From contig LT629697.1 in NCBI GenBank assembly GCA_900100325.1, positions 1,671,423-1,735,422 on the forward strand: 64,000 bases of DNA, read 5' to 3'. This stretch comes from Frankineae bacterium MT45. Its GTDB lineage: Bacteria > Actinomycetota > Actinomycetes > Mycobacteriales > Jatrophihabitantaceae. Made by a program: the position numbers and the translations under genes. This document shows positions 11,772-40,225 of this stretch, in pieces (positions within the stretch are counted from its first letter, which is position 1; the number at the start of each line of letters is the position of its first letter). The notes beneath the pieces were generated by a model. The model was given only the letters and a program-made list of their open reading frames with translations. It ran no database searches and was not told the DNA's origin.

Positions 11772-13502
11772 TCAGATCCAGCTCGGTAGCCACATGTGGG
11801 CCTGCCACACGTCCGTCGACATCGGCGCCCCGCGGAAGAGTGGCCACATCCACAGGAAGTCGACGATGACCACAGCGAGGTAGAACGTCAACCCCAGTGA
11901 ACCCCAGAATCTTCGGCGGTCCTCGGCGAAGAGGTAGGCCCGCTCACGCAGGTCGGCGAAGGAGCGCCCAGTCTCGCGCAGGGACGGGAGTGCGACGCCG
12001 GCCGGGCCGAGGAGTGCCCCCAGCGCGAGGGTCAACCCCAGCACCAGGAACGGGATCAGCGGGGCCATGTAGAAGATGAACATGGTCCGCTTGGGGTCCT
12101 GGAACCAGACCAGCCAGCCCGGGACGAACATAAGCAGCACCACGCCGGCCCGCCAGTCACGGGTCGTCACGTACTGCCAGATGATCCAGATCAGCGCCGG
12201 GGTGAAGGCCCACCAGAGCAGCGGCGTCCCGATCAGCAGCAACTCCGACGAGCAGTGCGCCGACCCGCAGGACGTCCCGTTCCCGTCGTAGTAGAAGTCG
12301 ACCGGACGCCCCAGCACCAGCCAACCCCACGGCTTCGAGCTGAACGGGTGGGGCGAGTCCAGACCTTCGTGGAAGGTGTACGCGTTGTAGTGATAAGCGC
12401 CGAGCGAGCGGATCGCATTCGGCAGGAAGCCCCAGTTGAAGGGAATGTGTATGCCCAGCGGCAGGTGCAGGGTGGCCGATGGCGAGTGAGTGTCGGCCCA
12501 GTGCCGGTTCCAGCCGTTGTTGCCAGCGAACCAACCCGTCCACACCAACAGATAGGTGCCCAGCGGCACCAGGAAGAGAGAGCCGATCGCGTAGATCCAG
12601 GAGCGGCGCACCGCCCAGCGCCACGACGACCGCACCCCGGCCGCCCGCAGCGCGTACCGGTCCCAGACCAGGCTCATCACGAGCATCGCGATGTAGAAGA
12701 AGGCGGCCGACCACTTCACCCCGCAGGCCAGGCCGAGCATCACACCCGCGACCAGGCGCCACGGACGCGGGCCGAGATGGGGGATGCCGTTGCGCAGCGG
12801 GACACCGGCCTCCACCAGGGAGGCCAGCCGGGCCCGCATCCGCTCCCGATCTAAGAGCAGCGCACCGAAGGCCGCGATCAGGAACGGCTGCAGGAAGATG
12901 TCCAGCAGCGCGGTGCGGGAGAGGACGATCGACATCCCCTCCAGCGCCAGTAGCAGCCCGGCCACCGCGCCGAAGAAGTTCGAGCGGAACATCCGCCGGG
13001 CCACCCGGGTCAGCAGGATGACGGCGACGGTCCCCGCGATCGCTGGGGCCAGCCGCCAGCCGACCTCAGCACTCCACCCCATCCGTCCAGCGAACGCCTC
13101 GCCCAGACCGATGAGCCACTTCCCGAGCGGGGGGTGGACCACGAACATGTAACCGCGGTTGTCCTCGTAGCCGAAGCGGATCAGCTCGCGACCTTCGGTG
13201 GCGTAGTAGACCTCGTCGAAGACCTTGCCCCGCGGGTGGCCCACGTTCCAGACCCGGATGACGAAGGCGATGAGCCCGATGAGCGTCGCCGCGATGATCC
13301 CGTGCCACGGGTGCGGGTCGTGCCAGGGCTGCAGCGACGGGGCGAGCGGTTCGGCCGGAGGCTGCTCGGCGGTGGGCTGCTCGGCGGCGGGTTCCTCGGA
13401 GGCCCCGGAATCCGGCGCCTCCAGTTCGCTCGCCGCCTCGGATTCGGCCTCGGTCTCCAGTGGGGTGTCGTCCCGTACGGGGTCCTCCACTGTCGCCGTC
13501 AC
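11772..13502 (-). CDS. pmt: Dolichyl/polyprenyl-phosphate-mannose-protein mannosyltransferase (PMT, GT39)
   Basis: A 576-residue polytopic GT-C enzyme that transfers mannose from polyprenyl-phosphate-mannose to Ser/Thr of proteins being exported through Sec. The first extracytoplasmic loop has the acidic pair in GKVFDEVYYATEG, and VVHPPLGKWLIG is the second conserved loop motif. The N-terminal ~60 residues are an acidic Pro/Ala/Glu tail unlike the rest. It is divergent from rsmI with a 23-bp gap; the same divergent pair is found in mycobacteria (Rv1002c|Rv1003), so this is probably the ancestral copy. A second PMT gene lies at 32071-33669. Confidence 0.92.
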   Translation of the reverse strand: MTATVEDPVRDDTPLETEAESEAASELEAPDSGASEEPAAEQPTAEQPPAEPLAPSLQPWHDPHPWHGIIAATLIGLIAFVIRVWNVGHPRGKVFDEVYYATEGRELIRFGYEDNRGYMFVVHPPLGKWLIGLGEAFAGRMGWSAEVGWRLAPAIAGTVAVILLTRVARRMFRSNFFGAVAGLLLALEGMSIVLSRTALLDIFLQPFLIAAFGALLLDRERMRARLASLVEAGVPLRNGIPHLGPRPWRLVAGVMLGLACGVKWSAAFFYIAMLVMSLVWDRYALRAAGVRSSWRWAVRRSWIYAIGSLFLVPLGTYLLVWTGWFAGNNGWNRHWADTHSPSATLHLPLGIHIPFNWGFLPNAIRSLGAYHYNAYTFHEGLDSPHPFSSKPWGWLVLGRPVDFYYDGNGTSCGSAHCSSELLLIGTPLLWWAFTPALIWIIWQYVTTRDWRAGVVLLMFVPGWLVWFQDPKRTMFIFYMAPLIPFLVLGLTLALGALLGPAGVALPSLRETGRSFADLRERAYLFAEDRRRFWGSLGLTFYLAVVIVDFLWMWPLFRGAPMSTDVWQAHMWLPSWI

Positions 13503-19139: not shown

Positions 19140-19201
19140 TCTGGGCATTCCTTCGCTTGGGGGGAGCGGAAATGGAGCTATGAAGCGGTCGAACGAACGC
19201 G

Positions 19202-19984: not shown

Positions 19985-19985
19985 G

Positions 19986-23069: not shown

Positions 23070-23076
23070 GACTTTC

Positions 23077-24461: not shown

Positions 24462-24518
24462 GGCAACCCCCTAACGGAAAGGATCGGAGTTCAAGTCGCG
24501 AATGGCTCTCCGACGGCC

Positions 24519-24560
24519 GATCGGAGCGCCAGGATCAGTCGATTCCTGGACGCCCCGATC
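24519..24560 (-). terminator. Hairpin after the second major prepilin gene
   Basis: GATCGGAGCGCCAGGA (24519-24534) pairs with 24544-24560 with one mismatch and one bulge. It lies in the 144-bp gap between pilA2 and the minor pilin genes and may attenuate transcription or protect the pilin mRNA end. Confidence 0.55.
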
Positions 24561-24605
24561 GAATCGTCGAGACCTTTCGAGCCCCAATCGAAGAGCGGAG
24601 AACGT

Positions 24606-25082: not shown

Positions 25083-25184
25083 CTTGACGTTCTCCTGTGG
25101 ACGGGGGTTGACAGGGGTATTCCGTAGCACCTTGCAGCCGGTGGCGGGGGGTCCACAGGAGGTGCTGGGGTGGTGCGTTCTTGC

Positions 25185-25233
25185 GGTCGCCGTAGTGCGG
25201 TGGTCCCTATCGGAACGCCGCACCACGGCGACC
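25185..25233 (-). terminator. Strong hairpin between the two major prepilin genes
   Basis: GGTCGCCGTAGTGCGG (25185-25200) pairs with 25218-25233 at 15 of 16 positions around a 17-base loop. It starts 22 bp after the pilA1 stop. Confidence 0.65.
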
Positions 25234-25255
25234 AGAGCTGACTACCGGACGCTAG

Positions 25256-25768: not shown

Positions 25769-25879
25769 GGGGGTTCTCTCCTGATTGGGGGATGGAGTTG
25801 TGGTCCGGGGACCCGGGCCTTTGGTCACCCACCATGCCGGTGAGTTTCCATCCGTGCTGGGGCACGGAAGTGGTGGAGC

Positions 25880-25914
25880 GGCGGCCGAAGCCTCTACCTG
25901 TGGATTCGGCCGCC
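25880..25914 (-). terminator. Hairpin just upstream of the first prepilin gene
   Basis: GGCGGCCGAA (25880-25889) and TTCGGCCGCC (25905-25914) are perfect complements with a 15-base loop. It begins 7 bp after the stop of the 585-residue protein gene. It may end the upstream transcript or act in the pilA 5' leader. Confidence 0.5.
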
Positions 25915-25921
25915 ACGAGCC

Positions 25922-27679
25922 TTACTTGAGGTTCGGTGGGGGCAACTTTCCGACTTGTGAAAGATCCGGAGTGGCAACCGGAACCACGGCATTACCGAGA
26001 GTCACCACGGTTGGTGCAGAGGTCGAGGGCGCGAACTTGGTGAGGTCCGCTGGGGTAAAGACCGCGGTCAGGGTGTGCGTTCCATCGGCGAAGGACTGGC
26101 CGGTGAGGCTGGCGACCCCGTTGGTCACCTTCACTGACGAGCCGACTGCGCCCAGACCGTCATAGAACTGAACCGATCCGGTAGCCGTGGCCGGTGCCAC
26201 CGTCTCCTTCAGATCCAGCTTGGTACCCGAGGTGATGCCGGTTGTGCCGCTCGGGTAGACCGTTGAGCCACCGTTCTTGGAAACGACCAGCGTCGAACTC
26301 GTACCGACCGCAGACGCGCTGTGGCAGGAGGTGTATGCGTACTTGACGTCCAGGCTGTTCGTGCGGTCGAAGGGAACCTGCACCCCTCCGGTCGAGGCAC
26401 CCAGGCCGCCGGTGCCGAGGTACCCGAGTCCGAGCGGAAGCGACAGATCGAAGTAGGGACCGATGCCGACCTTGGTGCCCCACGCCTCGGCCGAGGTGGC
26501 CGTGGTGCGCCCACCGGCTCCGACCGAGATCGCGATTCCGGCACCGAAGTTGCCGAGCAGGTTGGTCGTGCTCATGACGTTGACCGTCTTGCCACTCGGA
26601 TCAATGCTGGAGATGAATGCGGCGCTGTTCCAGCCGATCTTCGTCAGCAGGGTGGAGCCGTCGGCGCTCAGCCCAGCGAGGACGAGGCCGAGCGGGCCGG
26701 CGACGACGCTCTGCCCGGTGGCCGTGTACTTCAGACCGAGGACGTTGATCGAGGCCGAGACCGGCTTCGTGACGCCGGTGGCCGAGCCCTGGCTCCCGAG
26801 TGAGGAGACCGAGATCAGGCCGTTGGTTGCGCCGGGCAGCGAGAGCAGGTTGACCGACGGGTTACCGGCGATCATTGCCTTGTACGAGGGCTTCTGACCC
26901 GAGGTCGACGTCGGGCAGGAGGTCGACGAGAGCGGCCCTGAGGTCGGGCTGTTGATGCTCAGGATCTTGATCGGCCACTTGGGAAGTCCGATTCCGAATG
27001 AGACGTTGTTGCCCTGGGCCGAGGAGCTGTAGGTGTTGGCGGCATCGTCGGAGGTGAAACCGGTGACGCCCGTCGGCAGCCCGAACTGCATGCTGAGGCC
27101 ACCGCCGCTGCTCGTGTTGTCCGTGCTGACGAGCGCACTGCTCAGCGACGAGGTACCGGGGAAGCAGTTGATCGAGTTGTAGCTGCCGGTTCCACAGACC
27201 GGGAAGTTGCCGGTGTTCTGCGTGGTGACCGCAGCGTTCGTCGGCGACGGATCGAACCATCCACTCACCGGCAGGACGCTCGAGGGCGGTGTTGTGGCCT
27301 TCTGGCCGCCGGTCGACAGTACTGAACCGAGCGAGTTCACCAGCGGCGATAGGAAGAACGAGAAGATCGAGCAGATGATGGGATTCACCATGTTCAACAC
27401 AGGGTTGACGACGTTGTTCACGATCGGGCTCAGGAATCCGATGATCGACGTCGGTGGGATGAACATCTGGATTCCCCAAGCCGCATCACCCGTGCAGCTC
27501 TCAGCCTTCATCGGCTGCGAGGTCGCGCAGCCGACGCCGGCGGCACCAGTCGTGCAGGTCGAGCTGACGGTCGCCGCCTGGGCCGGGGCCGAGGTGGTCA
27601 CCGCTATCGACGTCGAGATGATCACGGCCGCTACGAAGGCGGTGAGAAGGACCTTGATCCTTGAGTGTGAACGCATCAT
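25922..27679 (-). CDS. Secreted protein of unknown function inside the pilus locus, with C-terminal Ig-like domain
   Basis: A 585-residue exported protein. It has a signal peptide (residues ~1-36, ending PAQAA), not a prepilin leader. Residues ~70-130 hold hydrophobic, Pro/Asn-rich stretches (IIGFLSPIVNNVVNPVLNMV) that look membrane-active or assembly-related. The middle is Gly/Ser/Thr-rich with paired Cys. Residues ~465-560 look like a bacterial Ig-like module (ATGSVQFYDGLGAVGSSVKV, then DGTHTLTAVFTP). The ATG overlaps the pilC stop (ATGA), so it is translated with the pilus motor proteins. No family was recognised beyond the Ig-like part. A surface or pilus-associated adhesin is a guess from position. 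Confidence 0.75.
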   Translation of the reverse strand: MMRSHSRIKVLLTAFVAAVIISTSIAVTTSAPAQAATVSSTCTTGAAGVGCATSQPMKAESCTGDAAWGIQMFIPPTSIIGFLSPIVNNVVNPVLNMVNPIICSIFSFFLSPLVNSLGSVLSTGGQKATTPPSSVLPVSGWFDPSPTNAAVTTQNTGNFPVCGTGSYNSINCFPGTSSLSSALVSTDNTSSGGGLSMQFGLPTGVTGFTSDDAANTYSSSAQGNNVSFGIGLPKWPIKILSINSPTSGPLSSTSCPTSTSGQKPSYKAMIAGNPSVNLLSLPGATNGLISVSSLGSQGSATGVTKPVSASINVLGLKYTATGQSVVAGPLGLVLAGLSADGSTLLTKIGWNSAAFISSIDPSGKTVNVMSTTNLLGNFGAGIAISVGAGGRTTATSAEAWGTKVGIGPYFDLSLPLGLGYLGTGGLGASTGGVQVPFDRTNSLDVKYAYTSCHSASAVGTSSTLVVSKNGGSTVYPSGTTGITSGTKLDLKETVAPATATGSVQFYDGLGAVGSSVKVTNGVASLTGQSFADGTHTLTAVFTPADLTKFAPSTSAPTVVTLGNAVVPVATPDLSQVGKLPPPNLK

Positions 27680-28905
27680 GAGGTTCCCCCAACGTGCTGG
27701 TAAATGGTGAACATGGGTAGGTACAGGCAGACGACCATCGAACCCACGATGACGCCCATTAGTACGACCATGATCGGTTCGATGGCAGCGGTGAGGGCCT
27801 CAGTTGCATCCTCGACTTCCTGGTCGTAGAAGTCGGCTACCTTGTCGAGCATTGTGCTGATCTGGCCGGTCTGCTCGCCGACCTCGATCATCTGGGTCAC
27901 CATCGGCGGGAAGACCGCATGCTTGCGTAGCGGCGACGTCATGGGCTGTCCGTCGCGGACCGCCTGCTGGACGTCCTTGGTCGCCTCGGTGATGACCTGG
28001 TTTCCGGTGGTGTCACCGACGACGTCGAGAGCTTGCATGACCGGTACACCCACCGCGAGCAATGTGCCAAGATTCCGGGTGAAGCGTGAGATCGCCACCT
28101 TGCGCAGTAGCGGCCCGAAGACCGGAACCCGCAGCTTGAAGCGGTCGAAGCCCAGGCGGATCGCCGGGTTGGTACGGAGAAGGTGCTTGAAAGTAACGGT
28201 AAACGCGATCGCCGAACCCAGAATGAGGGGGAACATCCACCACATCTGGTGACTCACCAGAACCAACATCCGGGTCGGCAGCGGCAGCTGGCCGCCGAGT
28301 GATTTGAACATCTTCTCGAAGACCGGAACGATGAAGACGACGACGCCGACGATCATGATGAGGCTGAACGCCAGCACGATCACCGGGTAGGTCAGGGCGC
28401 TCTTGATCTTGCTGTGCAGCGCGGCTTCCTTCTCCAGCGTCTTGGCGATACCGTCGAGGGCGCCGTCGAGGAAACCGCCCACCTCGCCGGCGCGGATCAT
28501 CGCGATCATGAGTTTGGGGAAGACCTTGTCGTGCTTGCTCAGCGCGTACGACAGCTGGGCACCGCCCTCGACATCGTTACGGACGTCGCGGAGAGCTTCG
28601 CGGAGCTTGGGCTTCTCCTGCTGCTCCTCCAGGATGGCCAGCGAGCGGATCAGCGACATTCCGGACGAGGTCATGGTGGCGAACTGGCGGGCCAGCACTG
28701 CGAGATCGCGGGTCTTGACGCGGCCGCCGAAGCCCGGGATCGAGATCTCCTTCTGCATGCCGGTGCCGGCTTCAGAGATCTTCAGAGGAGTGAGACCCTG
28801 CTGCTCCAGAGTTGCGGCGGCCGCAACCTGGGACTTGGCCTCGATCTTGCCCTTTGCGCGACTACCGTCGGGGGAGATGGTCTCGTAGTCGAACGTCATG
28901 GTCAT
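27676..28905 (-). CDS. pilC: Type IV pilus platform protein PilC (GspF family)
   Basis: A 409-residue inner-membrane protein with two GspF domains. The first has FATMTSSGMSLIRSLAILEEQ and MIAMIRAGEVGGFLDGAL; the second has FTRNLGTLLAVGVPVMQALDV and MIEVGEQTGQISTMLDKVADFY. Membrane helices lie about 170-195, 220-240 and 375-400. PilC couples the assembly and retraction ATPases to the pilus base. It starts 5 bp after the pilT stop. Confidence 0.95.
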   Translation of the reverse strand: MTMTFDYETISPDGSRAKGKIEAKSQVAAAATLEQQGLTPLKISEAGTGMQKEISIPGFGGRVKTRDLAVLARQFATMTSSGMSLIRSLAILEEQQEKPKLREALRDVRNDVEGGAQLSYALSKHDKVFPKLMIAMIRAGEVGGFLDGALDGIAKTLEKEAALHSKIKSALTYPVIVLAFSLIMIVGVVVFIVPVFEKMFKSLGGQLPLPTRMLVLVSHQMWWMFPLILGSAIAFTVTFKHLLRTNPAIRLGFDRFKLRVPVFGPLLRKVAISRFTRNLGTLLAVGVPVMQALDVVGDTTGNQVITEATKDVQQAVRDGQPMTSPLRKHAVFPPMVTQMIEVGEQTGQISTMLDKVADFYDQEVEDATEALTAAIEPIMVVLMGVIVGSMVVCLYLPMFTIYQHVGGTS

Positions 28906-28910
28906 GTTCT

Positions 28911-30044
28911 TTACCGCCGTCCGAAGAGTCGGTCGAAGTCCTCGGGGGAGTGGGCCAGCCCGCGCGCGGTGCGTTCGTCGATGGCGCCGGCCCGCACGTG
29001 CGAGGCCAGTGAGGAGTCGAAGGTGTGCATGCCGTTGAGGCTGGAGGACTGCATGAAGGACGGGATCTGGTGGATCTTCCCCTCGCGAACCAGGTTGCGA
29101 ATGGCCGACGTGGCGACCAGCACTTCAGTCACGGCAACCCGCCCCGGACGGTCGATGCGGCGCACGAGGGCCTGAGTGACGATCCCCTGCAGGGTGTTGG
29201 CCAGCTGCGCGCGGATCGTGTTCTGCTGCTCGTGCGGGAACATGTCGATGAGACGGTCGATCGTCTGGGCCGCGCTCGAGGTGTGCAGCGTGGCCAGCAC
29301 GAGGTGACCGGTTTCGGCTGCGGTGATGGCGACGGCGGCCGTCTCGATGTCTCGCATTTCTCCGACCAGGATCACGTCCGGGTCCTGGCGCAGGGCTGCC
29401 TTAAGGGCGATGGCGAAGGAGGCGGTGTCACTCCCCACCTCGCGCTGGGTGATCTTGCTCTTCCGGCCGCGGTGCACGAACTCGATCGGGTCCTCAATGG
29501 TGAGGATGTGCCCGGAGCGGCGGCGGTTGATCTCATCCAGCAGCGCGGCCAGGGTGGTCGTCTTACCCGAACCGGTCGGGCCGGTGACCAGCACCAGTCC
29601 GCGGTGCAGATTGCCGAAGTCGCCGAGAACTGACGGCATCTCGAGCTCGGCCAGCGAGCGGATTTCGTGGGGGATGGCGCGGAAGACGGCGCCGTAGCCA
29701 CCGCGCTCGCAGAAGACGTTGACTCGGAACCGGGAGACACCGGGCACGTCGTGGGCCAAGTCGAGTTCCTGGGTGCGTTCGAAGCGCTCCCACTGGCCGT
29801 CGGTAACGATCGAGCGGATGAGCATCGCGATGTCGGTGGCGGTGAGCTCGGGGTAGCCGTGCATGTCGTAGAGGTCGCCGCTGACCCGCAGCTTCGGAGC
29901 GACGCCGGCACCGAGGTGCAGGTCGGAGCCCTTGGCCTGGACGAGCTCGGCGAGCATCGTGTCCAGGGCAGCACGCTCTTCGCTCAGATCTACCGATCCA
30001 TGCGAACGCTGCTGCGAGACGTCTCCGACGGTGTGACTGGTCAC
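28911..30044 (-). CDS. pilT: Type IV pilus retraction ATPase PilT
   Basis: A 377-residue hexameric ATPase. Walker A is GPTGSGKTT (~155-163). The Asp box reads EDPIEFVH, the Walker B region QDPDVILVGEMRD, and the His box GHLVLATLHTSSAAQTIDR. The PilT-specific motif AIRNLVREGKIHQIPSFMQ (canonical AIRNLIRE) separates it from PilB. The start is a GTG at 30044; the N-terminal ~20 residues are an extra tail. A 159-bp gap to pilB may carry its own promoter. Presence of PilT implies retractile pili, able in principle to pull the cell or take up DNA. Confidence 0.95.
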   Translation of the reverse strand: MTSHTVGDVSQQRSHGSVDLSEERAALDTMLAELVQAKGSDLHLGAGVAPKLRVSGDLYDMHGYPELTATDIAMLIRSIVTDGQWERFERTQELDLAHDVPGVSRFRVNVFCERGGYGAVFRAIPHEIRSLAELEMPSVLGDFGNLHRGLVLVTGPTGSGKTTTLAALLDEINRRRSGHILTIEDPIEFVHRGRKSKITQREVGSDTASFAIALKAALRQDPDVILVGEMRDIETAAVAITAAETGHLVLATLHTSSAAQTIDRLIDMFPHEQQNTIRAQLANTLQGIVTQALVRRIDRPGRVAVTEVLVATSAIRNLVREGKIHQIPSFMQSSSLNGMHTFDSSLASHVRAGAIDERTARGLAHSPEDFDRLFGRR

Positions 30045-30203
30045 CAGTGCACCCTTAGCCCTTCCGTGGCCTTAACTCCTTTACGAACGCTTTACGCGTC
30101 GTCGGCTAACGGTAGGGGTGATGTGGGCAACTCGCAATTCGGAACGGAAATTAGTTTCCCGAGAATGCGTGGATAACTTGACTTTACGTCGAACTAACTT
30201 TGG

Positions 30204-31874
30204 CTAGACAGCCACACGTAGAACTTCTGCGACCGTCGTAAGACCGTCGGCGGCCTTACGCAAGCCGTCGGTGCGCAGGCTGTGCATGCCTTCCGCGGTG
30301 GCTACCTTGCGGATCTCATTGGCCGAGGCGCGCTCGACCGCCAGTCGTTCGACCTGTTCGCTGACGGTCATTACCTCGTGCAGGGCAACCCGTCCGCGAT
30401 ACCCGGTACCGGCGCAGGAGCGGCAGCCCACCGGATGCCAGAGTTCCTTCGGCAACTCGATGAGGTCCACCGGCCAGCGCGAGGCCAGCAGGTCAACCTC
30501 CTCGGGGCGGTAGGACTCCCGGCACCACTCGCAGAGTCGGCGGGCCAGGCGCTGGGCCAGGATGCAGTCGACCGATGAGCCGACGAGAAATGGTTCGATC
30601 CCCATCTCGACAAGCCTTGTAATTGCGCTGGGTGCGTCGTTGGTGTGGAGCGTGGAGAGCACGAGGTGACCGGTGAGCGAGGCTTCGACGGCGAGCTGAG
30701 CCGTCACCTTGTCCCGGATCTCACCGACCAGGGCGACGTCGGGGTCCGAGCGCAGGATGGCCGGCAGGACAGCGGCGAAGGTGAGCCCAGCCTTGATGTT
30801 CACCTGTACCTGATTGATGCCAGGTAGGCGGTACTCGACCGGGTCCTCAACGGTGATGATGTTGACCTCGGGCGTACTGATCTTGCTCAGCGTCGCATAG
30901 AGCGTGGTCGACTTTCCCGACCCGGTCGGACCGGTTACTAGGAGCATGCCGTGTGGCTTGGCGAAGGACGTAGAGAAGCGCGCGTAGTTCTCATCGGTGA
31001 AGCCGAGCTTGCGCAGATCGAGGTCGATACCGCCGGTGTCGAGAACTCGGAGGACCACCTTCTCGCCCCAGACCGTCGGTAGCGTAGCGCTACGAAGGTC
31101 TACTGAGCGTGACCCTAGGTTGACCGTCATTCGGCCGTTCTGGGGTACGCGGCGCTCCGTGATGTCCAGGGCCGACATGATCTTGATGCGGGAGATGAGC
31201 GCGGACTGCACCGCGTGCGGCACGGTGTCGATCTCATGGAGCACGCCGTCGATGCGGTAGCGCACCCGCAGGTCGCTCTCGGTCGGCTCCAGGTGCAGGT
31301 CGGAGGCCCGGTTGGCGATCGCCTGCTCGATGAGCGAGTTGACGTAGCGCACGATCGGCGCGTCCTCGCCGCTGGCCTGCAGATCGGCGTTGGTGTTCTG
31401 GGTCGGCGATCCGAGCGCCGCCGCGACCTCGCCGAGGTCGGTCTCCTCGCGCTGCAGTCGCTCGATCGCCTTCAGCAGGTCGTCGCGAGCCGCCACCACC
31501 GGCCGGATCGACATGCCGGTCGAGGCCCGCAGGTCATCCAGCGCCATCACGTCGTTGGGGTCGCTCATCGCGACAATCAGCTCGCCGAGCTCGATCCCGA
31601 CTCCGAGGACGGTGTGGCGGCGGGCCAGGGCCAGCGGCACCTTCTGGGCGGCCTCATTGTTCAGGTCGTAGTTGACCAGGTCGATGACGCGCAGGCCGTA
31701 CGCTTCGGCCGTCGCCTCGGCGAGATCCGCTTCGGTGATGACGTGGTCATTGACCAGGACGTCGCGAAGCTCCCGGCCGCTGGCGTGTGCGCTGGCGATG
31801 GCCTGATCGATCGCAGGCTCGTGGGCCCCACGCTCGATCAGCTTCTCCAGCACAGGGGCCAACGACTGATACAT
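30204..31874 (-). CDS. pilB: Type IV pilus extension ATPase PilB (GspE family)
   Basis: A 556-residue ATPase. The N-terminal MshEN-like domain (~1-140) lacks the RLG of the c-di-GMP-binding motif (here ELRDVLVNDHVITEADL), so binding is doubtful. Walker A is GPTGSGKST (315-323); EDPVEYRLPGINQVQ is the Asp box; RSDPDVALVGEIRDK is Walker B; HLVLSTLHTNDAPSAITRL the His box. A zinc motif, CEWC...CRSCAGTGYRGR, is kept. The first gene of the pilus locus; it is divergent from the second O-mannosyltransferase gene with 196 bp between them, which should hold both promoters. Confidence 0.95.
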   Translation of the reverse strand: MYQSLAPVLEKLIERGAHEPAIDQAIASAHASGRELRDVLVNDHVITEADLAEATAEAYGLRVIDLVNYDLNNEAAQKVPLALARRHTVLGVGIELGELIVAMSDPNDVMALDDLRASTGMSIRPVVAARDDLLKAIERLQREETDLGEVAAALGSPTQNTNADLQASGEDAPIVRYVNSLIEQAIANRASDLHLEPTESDLRVRYRIDGVLHEIDTVPHAVQSALISRIKIMSALDITERRVPQNGRMTVNLGSRSVDLRSATLPTVWGEKVVLRVLDTGGIDLDLRKLGFTDENYARFSTSFAKPHGMLLVTGPTGSGKSTTLYATLSKISTPEVNIITVEDPVEYRLPGINQVQVNIKAGLTFAAVLPAILRSDPDVALVGEIRDKVTAQLAVEASLTGHLVLSTLHTNDAPSAITRLVEMGIEPFLVGSSVDCILAQRLARRLCEWCRESYRPEEVDLLASRWPVDLIELPKELWHPVGCRSCAGTGYRGRVALHEVMTVSEQVERLAVERASANEIRKVATAEGMHSLRTDGLRKAADGLTTVAEVLRVAV

Positions 31875-32070
31875 GGGGCCAGGCTAACCGAGAATTACAC
31901 AGAGTGCCCTGTTGAAAGCGCCGTTTGTGCACCGGTTGAACAAGCTCTTTCGGACACCTGACCAGCACCTGACCGGCGACGCCGTAACCATGGCCGGTTG
32001 ATGCCAGTTCGGCGGCAAGTCCCGGCGGACCCTCACTTCTCAATGCCTGCTGCGTTATTCTGCGCCAGTG

Positions 32071-33669
32071 ATGTCGCCGAACCCCTCCGCCCGCGTTCCG
32101 ACGAAGGCGCGCGTGAAGTCGTCCAGCAAGACCTCCACCGACCGCGTGAAGAGTGGTGCCGACGATCCCGTCGCCCGTCGTGAGCCGCGCGATGCGAAGG
32201 CGAGCGGCAGTCGCTGGGAACGCTTGCAAGGGTGGGGTGAGCGCCAGCTGACCTACCGCCCCGAGCTGGTCATCCTCACGCTGTTGGCCCTCCTCACCCG
32301 TTTCTGGGACATCAACAGCCAGCAGACGGTGGTCTTTGACGAGGTGTACTTCAAGACCGCGGCCGGCGACTACCGCACCCACCAGTACTTCTTCGACCCG
32401 CACCCGCCGCTGTCGAAGATGCTGATCTCGCTCTGGTCGTGGCTGTCCGGGCAGAACCCCAATGTGGTGGCCAGCAGCACCGAGGCCGACAGCGTCGTTC
32501 GCTACCTACCGGCCTTCGCCGGGGCCATGCTGGTGCCGATCGTCTGGGTCATCCTGCGCCAGCTCAAGGCCAGCCGCCGCGTCGCCGCCCTCGGGGCCGC
32601 TGCGGTGCTGCTGGACAACGCGCTCATCGTCGAGTCCCGCTTCGTCCTCACCGACTCGCTGCTGATCGCCTTCGGCGTCGGCGCCGTCGCGGCGTACCTG
32701 GCCACCCGCACCCGCACCGGCTGGCGCTTCTGGGCCTTCGTCGTCCTCGCTGCGCTGCTCGGTGGAGCCGCCTTCGCGACCAAGTGGACCGGCGCCACCG
32801 CGCTCGCCCTCATCGCTCTGATCTGGCTCTACGACGTGGGTCAGAAGGTCTACACCGAAATGTTCCGGGGGCGCCGCGGTTTCGACCGTAGCTGGTGGCG
32901 CATCGCTGGCGTTGCGGCCATCTTCCTGGTGCTGCCGCCACTGCTCTACTTCGGGGCGTTCTGGATCCACTTCCAGCTGCTGACTCACTCCGGACCGGGT
33001 GACGCCTACATGTCGGCCCGCTTCCAGCGCACCCTGATCGGCAACCCGAACTACGACCCGAACTATCACATGACGTTCTGGGGCAAGTTCTGGGACACGT
33101 ACCACGCCTCGACGCTCTATGAGAAGGAAGTCACCAAGATCGGGCACCCGTACGGGTCGCGCTGGAACCAGTGGCCGCTGATGAACCGCTCCATCTACTA
33201 CTGGGCCGGTCCATCGGTGGGCGGCGAACAGGGGAACATCTACCTGATCGGCAACCCGATGGTCTGGTGGGGTGCGGTGATCGGCATGATCGCGGTCGCG
33301 TCGAACATGCTCTTCCAGCTGCGCCGCTTCGCCGGCTATATCTTCGCGCTCTGCCTGCTCGGCGTGGCCTACCTGATGAACTGGCTGCCCTTCGAGCGCA
33401 TCCACCGCGTGATGTTCCTGTACCACTACCTCTTCGCGCTGCTCTACTGCGTCATGTTCGCTGTCCTCGGCCTCGGTGTGCTGATGAACTGGAACCGCGA
33501 GTCGGATGAGCATTTCTGGCAGACCTGGGCGTGGAAGCGGGACTGGCTATACGTCACGATCCTCGGCCTGATCGTGGTCGGCTACCTCTTCATCTTCCCG
33601 CTCACCTACGGCTGGCGGCTGACGCCGGGTGCCCTCGACTTCCGGATGCTCCTCAACAAGTGGCGCTAG
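32071..33669 (+). CDS. Second protein O-mannosyltransferase (PMT, GT39)
   Basis: A 532-residue GT-C membrane protein. The acidic pair is in TVVFDEVYFKTAAGDY, and FDPHPPLSKMLISLWSWLSG is the conserved loop. Further PMT-type segments are ESRFVLTDSLLIAFGVG, ATKWTGATAL and GSRWNQWPLMNRSIYYW, and LPFERIHRVMFLYHYLFALLYC near the C-terminus. About 60 basic Ser/Lys-rich residues precede the first helix. An in-frame GTG lies 3 bases before the ATG used here. It is only distantly like the PMT at 11772-13502. Its position back-to-back with pilB suggests a link with pilus protein modification, which is inferred. Confidence 0.9.
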   Translation: MSPNPSARVPTKARVKSSSKTSTDRVKSGADDPVARREPRDAKASGSRWERLQGWGERQLTYRPELVILTLLALLTRFWDINSQQTVVFDEVYFKTAAGDYRTHQYFFDPHPPLSKMLISLWSWLSGQNPNVVASSTEADSVVRYLPAFAGAMLVPIVWVILRQLKASRRVAALGAAAVLLDNALIVESRFVLTDSLLIAFGVGAVAAYLATRTRTGWRFWAFVVLAALLGGAAFATKWTGATALALIALIWLYDVGQKVYTEMFRGRRGFDRSWWRIAGVAAIFLVLPPLLYFGAFWIHFQLLTHSGPGDAYMSARFQRTLIGNPNYDPNYHMTFWGKFWDTYHASTLYEKEVTKIGHPYGSRWNQWPLMNRSIYYWAGPSVGGEQGNIYLIGNPMVWWGAVIGMIAVASNMLFQLRRFAGYIFALCLLGVAYLMNWLPFERIHRVMFLYHYLFALLYCVMFAVLGLGVLMNWNRESDEHFWQTWAWKRDWLYVTILGLIVVGYLFIFPLTYGWRLTPGALDFRMLLNKWR

Positions 33670-33690
33670 TCCGCTAGCTGCCAGATACGA

Positions 33691-33724
33691 GAGAACTCCG
33701 TCGGCATTGGCCGGCGGAGTTCTC
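33691..33724. terminator. Hairpin between convergent pmt2 and GT2 genes
   Basis: GAGAACTCCGTCGGC (33691-33705) pairs with GCCGGCGGAGTTCTC (33710-33724) through a 4-base loop with one T/G pair. Confidence 0.65.
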
Positions 33725-33787
33725 ATCGTCTATGAGGTCGGTGCTGCCCTGTGCTCAGTGCCGACCGAAGCTGTGCTGCTGGGGCTC

Positions 33788-34531
33788 CTACTTGGAGACC
33801 TTCGACGCGCTGCGCTTGACGCGCTCGACGCGGTGGATCTTCACCCGGAGGGCAACGAGTTCGACGAAGGCCTTGGCGATGACCTTGAGGCTGGCGCCGG
33901 TCGCCTCACCGGCGGTGCGCTCGAAGTGCTGGACGCCCACCTGGGCGAAGGGGTGGTCGGCCCGCTTGAGTTTGCAGAGCAGCTCGGCCGAGATGACGGC
34001 GCCGTCGGACTCGAGCGGCATGATGTCCTGCAGTGCGCTGTTGCGGATCAGCTTGAAGGCGCAGTCGAGGTCCTTCACTCCGACGTTGAGCACCATGCGA
34101 ACGACGAGCGCCCAGAGCTTGGCGTTCACCTTCCGGCCGAAGTGGTCCTTGCGCCCCTCACGGAAACCGAGGACGACGTCGAACTTGTCGGTGCTCGGCA
34201 GGAAGCGAGCGAGGTCTCCGACGTCGAACTGGCCGTCACTGTCAGTGAAGAGCACCCACTCTTTCGTAGCGGACGTGAACCCGGTGCGCAGTGCCGCTCC
34301 GTAGCCTCCGTTGACCGTGTGGTGCACGACGCGGACGCCGGCTACCTCGTCGGCCAGTCGATCAGCCAGCTCACTCGAACCGTCGCTGGAGCCGTCGTCG
34401 ACCAGGATGATCTCGAAGTCCGAGATGCCGATCTGGGCGATCGCCTTGGCAGCGTCGGTCGTGGTCTGCTCCAACAAGGCGACCTCGTTGTAGACCGGAA
34501 AAAAGAGGCTGAGAGAGGTGAGCTGGCTCAT
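33788..34531 (-). CDS. GT2 glycosyltransferase, polyprenyl-phosphate-mannose-synthase-like
   Basis: A 247-residue GT-A enzyme. LFFPVYNEVALLEQT opens the fold, ILVDDGSSDGS is the nucleotide site, LFTDSDGQFDVGDL carries the DxD-like metal motif, and RKVNAKLWALVVRMVLN plus DLDCAFKLI are typical of dolichol-phosphate-mannose synthase relatives. There are no membrane helices. The ATG at 34531 starts MSQLTSLSLFF; the longer frame adds 22 non-homologous residues. If it makes polyprenyl-phosphate-mannose it would supply donor for the adjacent O-mannosyltransferase. A different sugar or acceptor is possible. Confidence 0.82.
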   Translation of the reverse strand: MSQLTSLSLFFPVYNEVALLEQTTTDAAKAIAQIGISDFEIILVDDGSSDGSSELADRLADEVAGVRVVHHTVNGGYGAALRTGFTSATKEWVLFTDSDGQFDVGDLARFLPSTDKFDVVLGFREGRKDHFGRKVNAKLWALVVRMVLNVGVKDLDCAFKLIRNSALQDIMPLESDGAVISAELLCKLKRADHPFAQVGVQHFERTAGEATGASLKVIAKAFVELVALRVKIHRVERVKRSASKVSK

Positions 34532-34613
34532 AGTTACCGAAGCGTAGCTGCTATTACTTTCGACGCCAAGTGATAGCGAAATGTTAGGGTGACCCAATGT
34601 CTGAGCGGCCCGT

Positions 34614-36647
34614 ATGACCGCGCTGCTCTACCTGATTGTAGGCCTTGCGTTCGGTGTGAGCGCTGCTCGCTGGGTAGGCCTGCGCCTCAACTATCTTGAG
34701 TTCGCCGCGGTATCGATCGTGGTCGGAACCTTCGGGTTTACCTGGATCATGCTGCTGCCCTGCATCGTGTTTCCGTACTCGGCGGCGCTGCCGCTTGGCG
34801 TGCTCCTCGTGGTGGCGGTCGGGGTGCTCCTCTGGCTCCGGGGTCAGTGGCGCGGCTTCGAGCAGCTGAGTCGCAGGATGCTCATCAGCTGGTCGGTGAT
34901 CGCACTGCTGTCGTTCGTCTTCTGGGTGACGCTGAGCTGGTCGCACGACCTGAACCCGGTCAACGGAACGCTGATGTCGGCCGGCTCGACGTGGGCCGAC
35001 TTCGGCCTGCACGCCAACCTCGTCACCCATCAGGCCTACGCCGATCATCTGCCGGGGAATCTCCCCATCGCCAGCGGCACCAACCTGACGTACCCCTTCC
35101 TGATCGACTTCCTCTCCGCCCTCTTCCTCAAGGGGGGCTGGAGCCTGCACATGGCACTCGCCGTGCCCGGAACGCTGCTCTGCTGGTCGATCACCCAACT
35201 CGTCCTCGGATTCGGCCGGCGCCTCTTCGGCAGCTTCGCCGGAGCCGTCGTCGGGTGCGTGCTGACCCTCGCCGGTGGCTCCTTCATCGGCATCACGCTG
35301 GCCTGGCACGACTACTCCAAGAGCGGCGAGAGCCTGCTGAAGTTCCTCGGCAAGCTCCCGGACGGGTACGCCGGATCCTGGGCCCACAACGCGCCGTTCT
35401 TCAACCCGGTCGCCGACCTGCTCCTGCCGCAGCGGGCCTTCCTCTTCGGGCTCGGTATCTGGCTGATCATCGCGATCCTCTGGCATCGCAGTTTCGTCGG
35501 GGATGCCGGTATGCCGGTGCCGCTCGGTGACGGTGGCGCATCTGGAGCCACACCCCGAGCCGACAAGTCCCGACCGGCGCGGTCGGGTAGCAAGGCGGCG
35601 GCCCGCAGCAGCACCAAGGCCGAAGCCGTAGCCCCCAAGCCGGCCGAGGTCGCGCTCGACGCCACCGGCCGCCGCACCCTCTTCACGGGCGCGGTGCTCT
35701 TCGGCCTGCTGCCGATGACCCACGCGCACTCCTTCATCTGCGCCGGCGTGCTCTTCGCCGGCCTCTTCGTCTGGGTCGTCATCAACCGGCGAGCGGAGCT
35801 GCGGGCCTGGCTCATCGCTGCCGGCGTCGCCATCGTCCTCGCGGTTCCGCAGCTGGCCTGGCAGCAGTTCGCCGTCGAGAACGGCACCGGTGGCCACTTC
35901 ACGCACGGATGGGTGCGCGCTGAGGGTGACCCGCTCCTCTCCTTCGAGTGGCGCAACTTCGGCTTCCTGCTGATCGTGCTGCTGGTCATCATCGTGCTGC
36001 TCTTCCGGTCAAGCTGGCGGCTCTACCGGCCCTGGTACATCCCGTTCCTGGTGCTGTTCGTGGTGGCTCAGCTCTACAGCGTCCAGCCGCTGGCCTATGA
36101 CAACCTGAAGCTCTTCTTCTACGTCTTCATGATGGCGATGCTCTTCCTCGGCGCACTGATCATGCGGATCAAGCTGCCGACGTCCTGGGCCACCGGTGGG
36201 CTGCGGAGCATCGCCGTGATTGCCGCGTTCGCGGTCCTCGGAACCGGTGGGGCGCTGACGATCGTGCGTGAATATCAGCTCAAATACCAATTCGCGTCGG
36301 CCGATGACCTGGCGCTGGCCGCCTGGGTCAAGGCGAACACGTCGATCAATGCGGTCTTCGCCGGAACACCCTCCACCGGTGAGTCGGCCGGGACGGTGGC
36401 CGGCCGCAACCTGCTCCAGGCCTATCCGGGGTGGCTCTTCAACTACAACCTCGATGCCACCGGGCGCAACGCGGCCCTGGCCGCCCTGATGCGCGGCGAC
36501 GTCAGTGACCCGAACGTCGCCAAGTACAAGCCGGACTATCTCGTGGTCGGCAGCAATGAGGCTCCGGGTACGACTGATCCGGCGGGGCTGGCCAAGCTGA
36601 ACAAGGTCTACAGCAACGACACTTGGACCGTCTACAAGCTCCGCTAG
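34614..36647 (+). CDS. Large polytopic membrane protein, possible GT-C glycosyltransferase
   Basis: A 677-residue protein with roughly twelve or more membrane helices. The first large outer loop, SAGSTWADFGLHANLVTHQA, contains an acidic residue in the place where GT-C enzymes keep their catalytic Asp/Glu, followed by GTNLTYPFLIDFLSALFL. A cytoplasmic-looking insert of about 55 Ala/Lys/Arg/Pro-rich residues (~300-350) interrupts the helices. The C-terminal ~100 residues are soluble and end VGSNEAPGTTDPAG. It overlaps no gene and is divergent from the GT2 gene with 82 bp between. No specific family was identified; the GT-C reading is tentative. Confidence 0.7.
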   Translation: MTALLYLIVGLAFGVSAARWVGLRLNYLEFAAVSIVVGTFGFTWIMLLPCIVFPYSAALPLGVLLVVAVGVLLWLRGQWRGFEQLSRRMLISWSVIALLSFVFWVTLSWSHDLNPVNGTLMSAGSTWADFGLHANLVTHQAYADHLPGNLPIASGTNLTYPFLIDFLSALFLKGGWSLHMALAVPGTLLCWSITQLVLGFGRRLFGSFAGAVVGCVLTLAGGSFIGITLAWHDYSKSGESLLKFLGKLPDGYAGSWAHNAPFFNPVADLLLPQRAFLFGLGIWLIIAILWHRSFVGDAGMPVPLGDGGASGATPRADKSRPARSGSKAAARSSTKAEAVAPKPAEVALDATGRRTLFTGAVLFGLLPMTHAHSFICAGVLFAGLFVWVVINRRAELRAWLIAAGVAIVLAVPQLAWQQFAVENGTGGHFTHGWVRAEGDPLLSFEWRNFGFLLIVLLVIIVLLFRSSWRLYRPWYIPFLVLFVVAQLYSVQPLAYDNLKLFFYVFMMAMLFLGALIMRIKLPTSWATGGLRSIAVIAAFAVLGTGGALTIVREYQLKYQFASADDLALAAWVKANTSINAVFAGTPSTGESAGTVAGRNLLQAYPGWLFNYNLDATGRNAALAALMRGDVSDPNVAKYKPDYLVVGSNEAPGTTDPAGLAKLNKVYSNDTWTVYKLR

Positions 36648-36697: not shown

Positions 36698-39600
36698 TCA
36701 GCGGAAGTCGCGTGAGGTCGAACGGAGTCCGAGGGGCAGCCGCTCTATTCGTTCGGCGCTGACGTTGGTGACCCCGTCGGCCCGCTCCAGCATGCCGCGG
36801 ATGAGCAGGCCGCCCGAGACTCGGGCCACCTTGCGGTAGCGGGTCCAGACGATCGGATCGCAGATGACGTTGACCATGCCGCTCTCGTCCTCGAGGTTGA
36901 TGAAGGTGACCCCGCGAGCAGTGGCCGGGCGCTGCCGATGGGTGACGATCCCCCCGACGATCACCCGTGTTCCATTGCTGATTCCCTTCAGCTGGGCCGA
37001 CGGGATCACCCCGAGCGCATCCAATCGGGGGCGGATCAGGGCGGTGGGGTAGTGCTCCCGTGATATCCCGGTGGCCCAGAGGTCGGCCATCAACTGCTCG
37101 GGTTCGGTCATCTCGGGTAGGTCGGGGACGCCCGTCTCGTCGAAGGTGCGGACGTCGAGCTGCCCTGGCCGGGATGAGGCGACGGCACCGGCGATCCAGA
37201 GGGCGTCCCGGCGCCCGATCTCGAAACTGGCAAAGGCGCCAGCGGTGGCCAGCGCCTCCACCTGGTCGCTGCTCAGCCCGACCCGGCGGGTCAGGTCGGC
37301 CATCGAGGTGAAGGGCCCGTTGCTCTCCCGCTCGGCCACGATCCGCTCGGCGTGGGTGTCGCTGATGCTGCGTACGCTGCTCAGCCCGAGCCGCACCGCA
37401 GGCTGCGCCGGGCCGGGGCCGGAGTACGGGCCGTTCGGCAACTCTCCTGCCATTTCAGCGTCAGGGCCCGCAGAATGCAGGAGGTTTGCCGAGGCTGGGT
37501 CGTCGGCCGGCCACTCCAGGTTGGCCGCGGCGAGGGAGATGTTGATGCTCGGGCCGAGCACGGTGACGCCGTGGCGCTTGGCGTCATGCACCAGCGTCTG
37601 CGGGGAGTAGAAGCCCATCGGCTGCGCATTGAGGAGTGCGGCGCAGAAGGCCGCCGGGTGATACAGCTTCAGCCACGACGATGCGTAGACCAGGAACGCA
37701 AAGCTGATCGAATGACTCTCGGCGAAGCCGAAGGCGGCGAAGGCCTTGATCTTCGTGAAGATCTCATCGGCCACCTTCCCGACGATCCCATTGGCCGCCA
37801 TCCCGTCGTAGAGCCGCTGCCGCAGCGCCTCCATCTTCTCGTGGGAGCGCTTCGAGCCCATCGCGCGCCGCACCGCATCCGCCTCGCTCGGCGAGCAGCC
37901 GGCCGCGTCGATGGCCAGCTGCATCAGTTGCTCCTGAAAGAGGGGAATACCCAGCGTCTTTTTAAGGTGTTTCTTCAACTTCGGGTGCGGGAAGGTGACC
38001 TTCTCCAGACCCTTCCGTCGACGGATGTAGGGGTGTACCGACTCACCCTGGATCGGCCCCGGACGGATCAGCGCGATCTCGATGACCAGGTCGTAGAACT
38101 TTCGCGGCCGCAGGCGGGGGAGGGTCCCCATCTGAGCTCGGGATTCGATCTGGAAGACGCCGACGGTGTCGGCTTCGCAGAGCATGTCGTAGACGAGCGG
38201 ATCCTCGGGCGGCACCTCGTGCAGGCCATAGCGCTGGCCGTGGAACTGTTCGACGAAGTCGAAGCAGTACTTCAGGGCCGAGAGCATCCCCAGCCCGAGC
38301 AGGTCGAACTTGACCAGCCCGATCGAGGCGCAGTCGTCCTTGTCCCACTGCAGCACGGTGCGGTTCGGCATCCGCCCCCACTCGACCGGGCAGACCTCGA
38401 CGATCGGGCGGTCGCAGATAACCATGCCGCCGGAGTGGATGCCGAGATGGCGGGGGGCGTTCTGCAGCTCGGCGGCCAGATCGAGGACCCGCTGGGGCAC
38501 CGCCGACTCGCCGGGCTCCTGCGGATCGGGCTCGACGGCGGCGAAGGTGTCCGGGGTCCAGTAGTAGCTCAGGTCGATCTCCTTGCTCCAGGCGTCCTGC
38601 TGTCCGGCGGAGTAACCGAGGGCCTTGGCCACGTCACGCAGCGCCGACTTGGGGCGGTAGCTGATCACGTTGGCCACCTGGGCGGCATGGTCTCGGTCGT
38701 AACGCTCGTAGACGAATTGGATGGCCTCCTCGCGGCGATCGGATTCGATATCGACGTCGATGTCGGGCGGGCCGTCCCGGTCGGGGGAGAGGAAGCGTTC
38801 GAAGAGCAGGCCGTACCTCACCGGGTCGACCGCGGTGATGCCGATGGCGAAGCAGACGGCCGAGTTGGCCGCCGACCCGCGACCCTGGCAGAGAATGCCC
38901 CGGGCGTGGCAGAACTGGGTGATGCCCCAGACGACCAGGAAGTAGCCGGGAAAGTTGAGCTGATTGATGATCCGCAGTTCGTGCTCGATCTGCCGGTAGG
39001 CCTTCTCCGTCTTGGCCGAGCGGGGGCCGTACCGCTCCTGGGCACCGCTCAGCGCCAGTTCGCGCAGGTAGGTCATCTCGTCGTGGCCGGGCGGCACCGG
39101 GAAGGGGGGCAACTCCGGGGCGATGAGTTTCAACTTGAAGGCGAGCTCGCGGGCCAGCCCGGCTGCGGTGTCGGTGAGGCCGGGCCAGCGGGCGAAGCGG
39201 GCGGCCATCTCCGTACCGCTGCGCAGGTGCTGATCCGACCAGCCGGGCAGCCAGCCGTCCATCTCGTCCAGCGTGCTGCGGGCCCGGACCGCGGCCATCG
39301 CGGTGGCCAGCGGTCGTCGGGGTGGTGCGTGATAGTGCGCCGCGGTGCTGGCGATCATCGGCAACCGGGCCTCCCCGGCCAGCAGTGCGAGAGCGTCGTA
39401 GCGGTCGTCGGCCAGCGGATCGAGGCTGTGGGTCAACTCCACGACCACGTTCTCCCGGCCGAAACGGCCGACCAGCTCGTCCAGGGCGCGCCGGGCCGGG
39501 TCGAGGGCGAAGGTGCCGTAGCTCGCCGGGCTCTCCAGCGCCCCCCGAACGCTGCCCTTGCGGCAGCCGGTGAGGATCAGCCAGTGCCCGTCGGCGGCCG

Positions 39601-40225
39601 CGGTGAGCTCGTCCAGGTGATACACCGGCCGCCCCTTCACGCCGCCGCGCCGGTGGGCCGCACTCATCGTCCGGCAGAGCGAGGCGTACCCGATCGGATC
39701 GCGGGCCAGCACGAGCAGGTGCCGCCCGGGTGGATCGGGGACGCCGGCCCGGGCCGCGATCATCCGCTCGGACTGGGTGCGGGGAATCTCGACGTCCAGG
39801 CTCAGCTCGGCTCCGAAGATGGTGGGCAGCCCCAGCGCGTCGGCCGCCTCGGCGAAGCGGACGATGCCGTAGACCCCGTCATGGTCGGTGAGGGCGAGCC
39901 CCTGCAGGCCGAGCCGGACCGCCTCCTCGGCCAGCTCCTCCGGGGAGCTGGCCCCGTCCAGGAAGCTGAAGGAGGAGTGGGCGTGCAGTTCGGCGTAGGG
40001 CGTCCGGCTCGACTCGGGAAGCTCAGGGAGAAGGTGACCCGAGGGGGAGTAGGCCTCGCGTTTGCGTGACCAGGCTGGTGAGTCGCCGCCGTCACCCTGC
40101 ACATCACCCGGACGCGCGTGAGCGCCATGCCCATCAGCGTGCCCGTCGCTGTGCCCGTCACCGCGGCCGGAGAGGCGCCGCTCCAGCTCGCGCCAGGGGA
40201 TCGGCGGGTTCTGGAATCCCATCAC
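36698..40225 (-). CDS. dnaE2: Error-prone DNA polymerase III alpha subunit DnaE2
   Basis: A 1175-residue C-family polymerase for translesion synthesis. A PHP domain begins at YAELHAHSSFSFLDGASSPE. The palm motif DGPPDIDVDIESDRREEAI holds the catalytic acidic residues; GRGSAANSAVCF and MGSKRSHEKM are fingers/palm segments; the C-terminal OB-fold contains GTRVIVGGIVTHRQRPATA. The first ~70 residues are an unusual His/Gly/Asp-rich tail (GDGHSDGHADGHGAH). A perfect SOS box lies 8 bp upstream of the start. With ImuA' and ImuB (49782-52177) it makes the mutasome responsible for damage-induced mutagenesis in other actinobacteria. Confidence 0.95.
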   Translation of the reverse strand: MMGFQNPPIPWRELERRLSGRGDGHSDGHADGHGAHARPGDVQGDGGDSPAWSRKREAYSPSGHLLPELPESSRTPYAELHAHSSFSFLDGASSPEELAEEAVRLGLQGLALTDHDGVYGIVRFAEAADALGLPTIFGAELSLDVEIPRTQSERMIAARAGVPDPPGRHLLVLARDPIGYASLCRTMSAAHRRGGVKGRPVYHLDELTAAADGHWLILTGCRKGSVRGALESPASYGTFALDPARRALDELVGRFGRENVVVELTHSLDPLADDRYDALALLAGEARLPMIASTAAHYHAPPRRPLATAMAAVRARSTLDEMDGWLPGWSDQHLRSGTEMAARFARWPGLTDTAAGLARELAFKLKLIAPELPPFPVPPGHDEMTYLRELALSGAQERYGPRSAKTEKAYRQIEHELRIINQLNFPGYFLVVWGITQFCHARGILCQGRGSAANSAVCFAIGITAVDPVRYGLLFERFLSPDRDGPPDIDVDIESDRREEAIQFVYERYDRDHAAQVANVISYRPKSALRDVAKALGYSAGQQDAWSKEIDLSYYWTPDTFAAVEPDPQEPGESAVPQRVLDLAAELQNAPRHLGIHSGGMVICDRPIVEVCPVEWGRMPNRTVLQWDKDDCASIGLVKFDLLGLGMLSALKYCFDFVEQFHGQRYGLHEVPPEDPLVYDMLCEADTVGVFQIESRAQMGTLPRLRPRKFYDLVIEIALIRPGPIQGESVHPYIRRRKGLEKVTFPHPKLKKHLKKTLGIPLFQEQLMQLAIDAAGCSPSEADAVRRAMGSKRSHEKMEALRQRLYDGMAANGIVGKVADEIFTKIKAFAAFGFAESHSISFAFLVYASSWLKLYHPAAFCAALLNAQPMGFYSPQTLVHDAKRHGVTVLGPSINISLAAANLEWPADDPASANLLHSAGPDAEMAGELPNGPYSGPGPAQPAVRLGLSSVRSISDTHAERIVAERESNGPFTSMADLTRRVGLSSDQVEALATAGAFASFEIGRRDALWIAGAVASSRPGQLDVRTFDETGVPDLPEMTEPEQLMADLWATGISREHYPTALIRPRLDALGVIPSAQLKGISNGTRVIVGGIVTHRQRPATARGVTFINLEDESGMVNVICDPIVWTRYRKVARVSGGLLIRGMLERADGVTNVSAERIERLPLGLRSTSRDFR

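Follow-up and report, generated by a model that had tools for sequence, protein, structure and literature searches.

Next to the type IV pilus genes of Frankineae bacterium MT45 lie three genes whose products resemble enzymes that glycosylate secreted proteins, which raises the question of where this set came from and what it modifies. The locus was analysed within a window of 64,000 nucleotides (contig LT629697.1, positions 1,671,423 to 1,735,422; positions below are counted from the first nucleotide of the window) that is contained in a complete, single-contig genome of 4.23 Mb. The three genes, here termed the trio, encode a predicted protein O-mannosyltransferase (PMT2, 32071..33669, plus strand), a glycosyltransferase of family 2 (GT2, 33788..34531, minus strand) and a 677-residue membrane protein with a predicted GT-C fold (34614..36647, plus strand). 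An earlier note on this DNA had placed a second PMT, a GT2 and a GT-C-like protein beside pilB, and these genes and their coordinates hold by Pfam and AlphaFold. What it missed is the link to another phylum: the three genes are related to those of Saccharimonadia and were probably imported, and PMT2 did not arise by duplication of the ancestral PMT. With a probability of roughly 0.62, we consider the trio to be a polyprenyl-phosphate-dependent protein glycosylation cassette that the ancestor of the genus acquired as a block from Saccharimonadia and that was inserted between dnaE2 and pilB. Gene order, the identity of the relatives, tree positions, an empty insertion site and purifying selection form the basis for the transfer.

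Origin of the three-gene set

PMT2 is, as judged from its sequence, a member of a eukaryote-like PMT subfamily that lacks the MIR domain and is spread through Patescibacteria. A scan of one genome per species with two peptide patterns, which misses PMTs that lack them, returned 55 loci with a PMT2 relative. The five highest identities (51, 50, 45, 41 and 40%) belong to four records named Saccharibacteria or Saccharimonadia and one named Patescibacteria (L035) whose genome falls in Saccharimonadia, followed by other Patescibacteria and some Pseudomonadota, Myxococcota and Bdellovibrionota. Within the sample of the class around the best match, Saccharimonadia, 11 of 244 genomes carry a relative. 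Searches elsewhere gave little: no relative was confirmed among 98 pattern matches in viral contigs, plasmids yielded only three Nitratiruptor records with 25-28% identity to PMT2, and a first scan of genome contigs with PMT2 alone gave nine pattern matches and no relative.

The full trio recurs in three Saccharimonadia (L034, L035 and L106) as PMT on the plus strand, GT2 on the minus strand and GT-C on the plus strand, followed by a gene for a pilB-type ATPase. Genes, order, orientation and the adjacent ATPase are thus shared with the window, although in Saccharimonadia pilB comes after GT-C and shares its strand, whereas the native pilB of the window is found at the PMT2 end of the trio and points away from PMT2. 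Because order and orientation recur in three Saccharimonadia genomes, the three-gene arrangement is not a matter of chance. A fourth member of the class, L107, has PMT followed by pilB, without GT2 and GT-C. The flanking genes argS, smpB, pilB and those for a CHAP and a ROK protein are common to all four loci and, since they are conserved in this way, the position of the locus is, on gene neighbourhood, old in the Saccharimonadia lineage. That assembly or binning errors, in the window or in the Saccharimonadia contigs, account for this likeness is hardly credible: the Saccharimonadia genomes are metagenome-assembled, but three of them (1.1-1.7 Mb) agree with one another, and the window genome and that of its sister species (G017) are single-contig assemblies with the same arrangement. 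Beyond the full trio, PMT and GT-C family genes are neighbours in 17 of the 55 loci (within L034-L084), distributed over Patescibacteria, Pseudomonadota, Myxococcota and Bdellovibrionota, and form a recurring two-gene module, which supports the two proteins working together.

The trees give the same picture of relatedness. A broad PMT tree comprised 66 rows, leaving out L083 (predicted protein not over 350 residues), L114 (the same locus as L036) and the second PMT of the window, PMT1; careful trees were then built from 35 hand-chosen rows of the 66, and from 34 of those 35 with three rows added from the distant actinobacterial genus g298. Ten Saccharimonadia and the window genus form one clade (support 100/100), in which the window genus groups with L034, L035 and L106 (100/99); the PMTs of three further Saccharimonadia (L111-L113) are placed elsewhere among Patescibacteria. 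In approximately unbiased (AU) tests a clade of the ten Saccharimonadia alone was rejected (p 0.037, and p 0.043 with g298 added). For GT-C, the window protein pairs with that of L034 (97/95, and 98/95 in a second tree), and the tests rejected the three Saccharimonadia as a clade of their own (p 4e-4) as well as a clade uniting the actinobacterial sequences (p 5e-5). GT2 of the window likewise pairs with L034 (97/94). The GT2 reading of L163 in a quick tree, on a branch of length 10, is an artefact, and that tree was not used.

In actinobacteria, PMT2 is rare. At E <= 1e-20 the order sample of 150 genomes contains two with PMT2, and the family sample of 24 likewise two, which belong to one genus, with the other 22 lacking it; GT-C also occurs in two of the 150. 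At the same threshold for PMT2 the class sample gave 4 of 394, namely the window genome and, with 42-44% identity, three from g298, and at E <= 1e-15 the phylum sample gave 1 of 396, the window genome only; at most three candidates per genome were scored in the phylum and class samples, so that the extent of this rarity is to be read as a lower bound. Both sampled species of the window genus, each represented by one genome, carry the trio. The g298 genomes (L163, L164 and L165, that is G834, G853 and G882) carry PMT and GT-C as a pair that falls within the clade of the window genes, probably through a separate event; the L163 pair lies near a gene for EF-G, with another GT-C-like match nearby. 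Homologues of GT2 that join the trio clade also occur in two other actinobacteria, L132 (G019, 41% identity) and L133 (G114, 33%), and PMT2 was not found in either genome.

The site of insertion can be read from relatives. A DnaE2-like error-prone polymerase gene (36698..40225, minus strand) is the ancestral neighbour of pilB, identified from Pfam, plasmid matches and an orthologue near pilB in relatives; its plasmid matches are annotated as error-prone DNA polymerase, with the best from Tsukamurella and Amycolatopsis, and we take the best eight listed to be all actinobacterial. In G058, G049 and G001, from the same family, dnaE2 and pilB are 120, 122 and 372 bp apart and no part of the trio is present, while in the window and G017 the trio lies exactly between the two genes; G040, G065 and G030 of the same family have larger gaps filled with other sequence. 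The ratio of nonsynonymous to synonymous substitution rates (dN/dS) between the two genus members is 0.17 for PMT2, 0.05 for GT2 and 0.15 for GT-C, and the dS of 0.41-0.50 in the trio compares with 0.34-0.66 in pilB, pilT, pilC and dnaE2. Given this purifying selection in both members and a dS like that of the flanks, the trio predates the split of the two species and is in use.

Several observations weigh against acquisition from Saccharimonadia. For PMT alone, two alternatives were not rejected by the AU tests, namely a single clade of the actinobacterial sequences (p 0.146) and one made up of the trio-bearing Saccharimonadia L034, L035 and L106 (p 0.277), and the pairing of the window PMT with that of L034 dropped from 95/93 to 84/76 once g298 was added. 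The trio proteins are only 36-59% identical to those of Saccharimonadia; therefore either the actual donor is missing from the sample or the transfer took place long ago. Composition is host-like as well: G+C at third codon positions (GC3) is 0.88-0.92 in the trio, and no trace of a donor was seen. A move in the opposite direction, from an actinobacterial host to its episymbiont, or an origin of both copies in an unsampled third lineage, would fit the weak AU tests on PMT and the occurrence of this GT-C clade in three Saccharimonadia and five actinobacterial genomes. We consider it unlikely, in view of the spread of the PMT family through Patescibacteria with the window genus nested within, the conserved chromosomal place of the Saccharimonadia copy and the rarity in actinobacteria described above.

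Predicted activities of the three proteins

The assignment of PMT2 as a eukaryote-like, MIR-less protein O-mannosyltransferase of the GT39 type draws on Pfam, homology to Pmt4 in the Protein Data Bank (PDB) and the trees. Its 533 residues (with an alternative GTG start at 32068) match PF02366 (E 1.2e-43; 149.9 bits against a curated cut-off of 22.7) and PF16192 (E 1.5e-27; 96.8 bits against 32.4), placing it in the PMT/GT39 family. The required loop motifs are present as FDEVYF at 90, SRFVLTD at 190 and RVMF at 447, and the residues D91/E92, R191/D196 and R447/F450 are retained; in the enzyme MtPMT catalytic roles are described for the DE motif of loop 1, the second Asp of Rx4D in loop 2 and Rx2(F/Y) in loop 5 (PMC12331936; this and the other papers named here are drawn on from part of their text). 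From its family, PMT2 would transfer mannose to serine and threonine.

Fungal Pmt4 matches PMT2 at 1e-40, with 31-32% identity over the N-terminal part. PMT2 shares with the fungal enzymes (Pmt4, Pmt1-Pmt2) the N-terminal catalytic part, including the SGPGD loop, and a C-terminal region of four transmembrane segments, but not the MIR domain between the two parts, for which no Pfam match was found at E 0.01; it is accordingly shorter than the PMT chains in the PDB, at 533 against 759-817 residues. The presence of a second PMT in addition to an ancestral one was correctly noted before, since PMT1 (11772..13502, minus strand) is also a PMT by Pfam. PMT1 is an ordinary actinobacterial Pmt by Pfam and NCBIfam, lies outside the trio and is adjoined by a TP_methylase reading frame (13526-14416) that the earlier note calls rsmI. 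Like PMT2, the actinobacterial Pmt type (NF058602) is a membrane O-mannosyltransferase of PF02366 and PF16192 with a DE motif, although PMT2 is closer to fungal Pmt4: it scores 34.6 bits over 143 residues on NF058602, whereas PMT1 scores 284.5 bits over its full length, and neither reaches the equivalog cut-off of 800. With 23% identity between the two and membership of another subfamily, PMT2 as a duplicate of PMT1 is ruled out.

The GT2 protein, with a probable ATG start at 34531, is predicted from Pfam, PDB matches and trees to be a polyprenyl-phosphate sugar synthase of the DPM1/ArnC kind, whose sugar is not readable from the sequence. It matches PF00535 (E 6.5e-28), and in the PDB ArnC (1.6e-16) and dolichol monophosphate mannose synthase (1.3e-6); no NCBIfam equivalog cut-off was reached. 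It shares the GT2 fold and a DxDxQ motif with ArnC and the polyprenyl- and dolichyl-phosphate mannose synthases, for which we take this motif to be typical.

The 677-residue protein reaches no Pfam cut-off, with DPY19 (PF10034) at 18.7 bits against a curated 27.2. Its AlphaFold model (pLDDT 87, pTM 0.89), compared by Foldseek and VIA-align, predicts a GT-C fold glycosyltransferase whose closest structures are DPY19, STT3/AglB, AftA and ArnT. The model aligns with these over about 440-485 residues at Z values of 14-18 (18.0 to STT3, 16.6 to DPY19 in VIA-align), although sequence identity is 9-12%. D129 and H133 are invariant in 17 sequences, supplying the acidic residue expected in loop 1 of the fold.

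Taken by family, GT2 would load a hexose, probably mannose, onto polyprenyl phosphate inside the cell and, after flipping, PMT2 would move the lipid-borne hexose to serine or threonine of secreted proteins. The GT-C protein may use the same kind of donor, adding a further sugar or modifying a second acceptor. More tentatively, the acceptors may include type IV pilins or other pilus proteins.

The three genes do not form one operon, a further point against a single cassette. GT2 is convergent with PMT2, and between the two lies a hairpin (33691..33724) that folds with a 15-bp stem and a 4-nt loop. The 76-nt stretch containing it folds at -42.7 kcal/mol (z -6.55), and none of 200 shuffles was as stable; it is possibly a two-way terminator, and a terminator scan did not score it as terminator-like. 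A single operon with a shared promoter is ruled out by strands and hairpin. The trio had also been described as sharing a 196-bp divergent promoter region with pilB; the head-to-head intergenic region (31875..32070) does span 196 bp from the pilB start to the PMT2 ATG, but only PMT2 faces pilB. Comparison with the sister species shows one conserved block beside pilB and another beside PMT2 with a variable middle, so that two separate promoters are as likely as one shared promoter. A sigma-70 scan of the region found no promoter.

The pilus locus and the possible acceptors

The pilus genes next to the trio all lie on the minus strand: pilB (30204..31874), a native actinobacterial type IV pilus assembly ATPase with MshEN and T2SSE domains by Pfam and comparison with relatives, pilT (28911..30044; Pfam), pilC (27676..28905; T2SSF, Pfam) and two type IV pilin genes (24606-25226 and 25256-25828), both with N_methyl PF07963, whose products are candidate acceptors. 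The names PilM, PilN, PilO, PilD and PilX for pilus genes are our assumption, given by eye. Between the pilins and pilC lies a gene for a 585-residue protein with 26% serine and threonine (25922-27679, minus strand), for which, among 15 loci compared, the sister species has a match (28%) and G093 a weak one, and no other locus has any. A PilO-like reading frame (16691-17734, minus strand) carries a long C-terminal Ser/Thr repeat tail, in which 25 of 30 residues are serine, threonine or proline, and is a candidate O-glycosylation acceptor. GC3 of the pilus genes (window positions 16691-31874) is 0.72-0.87, below the 0.88-0.94 of the trio and the other neighbours measured.

Pilus proteins are a plausible target, at even odds or less, going by the pilus genes that neighbour the trio or PMT in both phyla. 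The trio adjoins pilus genes in both sampled members of the genus, and a PMT adjoins pilus genes in four Saccharimonadia loci. Of 50 loci, 7 include a T2SSE gene, where uniform placement would give 2.7 (P 0.017), a statistic that covers 50 of the 55 loci and T2SSE genes only; by our grouping the positive loci represent about five independent lineages. The trio would then resemble the pilin O-glycosylation of Neisseria and Pseudomonas in decorating pilin serine and threonine from a polyprenyl donor. In those organisms the modification is carried out by PglL and TfpO, ligase families different from that of PMT2.

The same comparisons also count against this target. Pilus proteins had been called Ser/Thr-rich, which is correct (25.7% in mature PilA1, 18.4% in PilA2) and not special: ten PilA from nine of ten trio-less loci examined have 16.4-25.6% (L129 gave no PilA), so that pilins have the same content whether or not the trio is present, and richness is ruled out as evidence of modification. 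In g298, no pilus gene was found in the 16-20 kb read around PMT and GT-C, and in eight Saccharimonadia loci (L037, L042 and L108-L113) the stretch read contains a PMT, but a pilus gene, GT2 and GT-C were not detected there. These observations, together with the description of Pmt as a general protein O-mannosyl transferase of most Actinobacteria (PMC5882110), would suit a trio that glycosylates the general secretome or envelope and lies beside pilB by an accident of insertion. The pilus-gene neighbours in two phyla and the T2SSE excess speak against such an accident, and we place this alternative somewhat below even odds.

The earlier note's own reading, a dedicated pilin O-mannosylation system belonging to the actinobacterial pilus locus, agrees with the head-to-head position relative to pilB in both sampled species. 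A distinct extracytoplasmic glycosylation set does stand beside the pilus locus, but a general or dedicated actinobacterial system is quite unlikely: pilB occurs in 47 of the 150 genomes of the order and PMT2 in two, leaving 45 of the 47 pilB-bearing genomes without it, and 14 other actinobacterial pilB loci (L116-L129) gave no match to PMT2, GT2 or GT-C. As to the proposed co-occurrence of this PMT subfamily with the pilus locus, the two adjoin in the window genus and the four Saccharimonadia loci, but most pilB-bearing genomes of the order lack PMT2.

Predicted glycosylation genes shared by Saccharimonadia and the phylum of their cultured hosts

Saccharibacteria are tiny bacteria, and those in culture live on actinobacterial cell surfaces. 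The stronger finding here is a cross-phylum, order-preserving set, predicted to be a glycosylation cassette, that is related to Saccharimonadia and lies beside pilus genes. Among the papers listed by a literature search, mostly outside subscription journals, none reported the trio, a Saccharibacteria PMT that modifies pilins, or a transfer of this kind to actinobacteria. Bacterial protein O-mannosylation has been described as seemingly restricted to Actinomycetota (PMC12331936); in contrast to this statement, Patescibacteria hold a eukaryote-like, MIR-less PMT family. The Saccharibacterium TM7x binds its hosts with type IV pili, and three of its pilins are predicted to be O-glycosylated with no enzyme named in the text available (PMC12206443). 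The patescibacterial PMT family is a candidate for the pilin O-glycosylation enzyme in those Saccharimonadia that carry it.

On the host side, a PMT C-terminal domain is present in all 13 TM7x-susceptible Actinomyces genomes and in none of the 10 resistant ones (PMC7784981, Table 1), where susceptibility also follows phylogeny. One may imagine that a cassette which moved from an episymbiont into a host-type lineage and settled by its pilus genes alters recognition by Saccharibacteria, as a sugar coat common to the pili of the two partners that serves as docking sign or disguise; we regard this as very unlikely. In samples from soil and plants, Saccharibacteria are frequently found together with Actinobacteria (PMC8406219), and a survey tabulates, in the part consulted, mainly transfers into Patescibacteria (PMC12455944). 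If the acquisition proposed here is true, gene flow between Saccharimonadia and the phylum of their cultured hosts can also go in the direction of the host and affect the host's surface.

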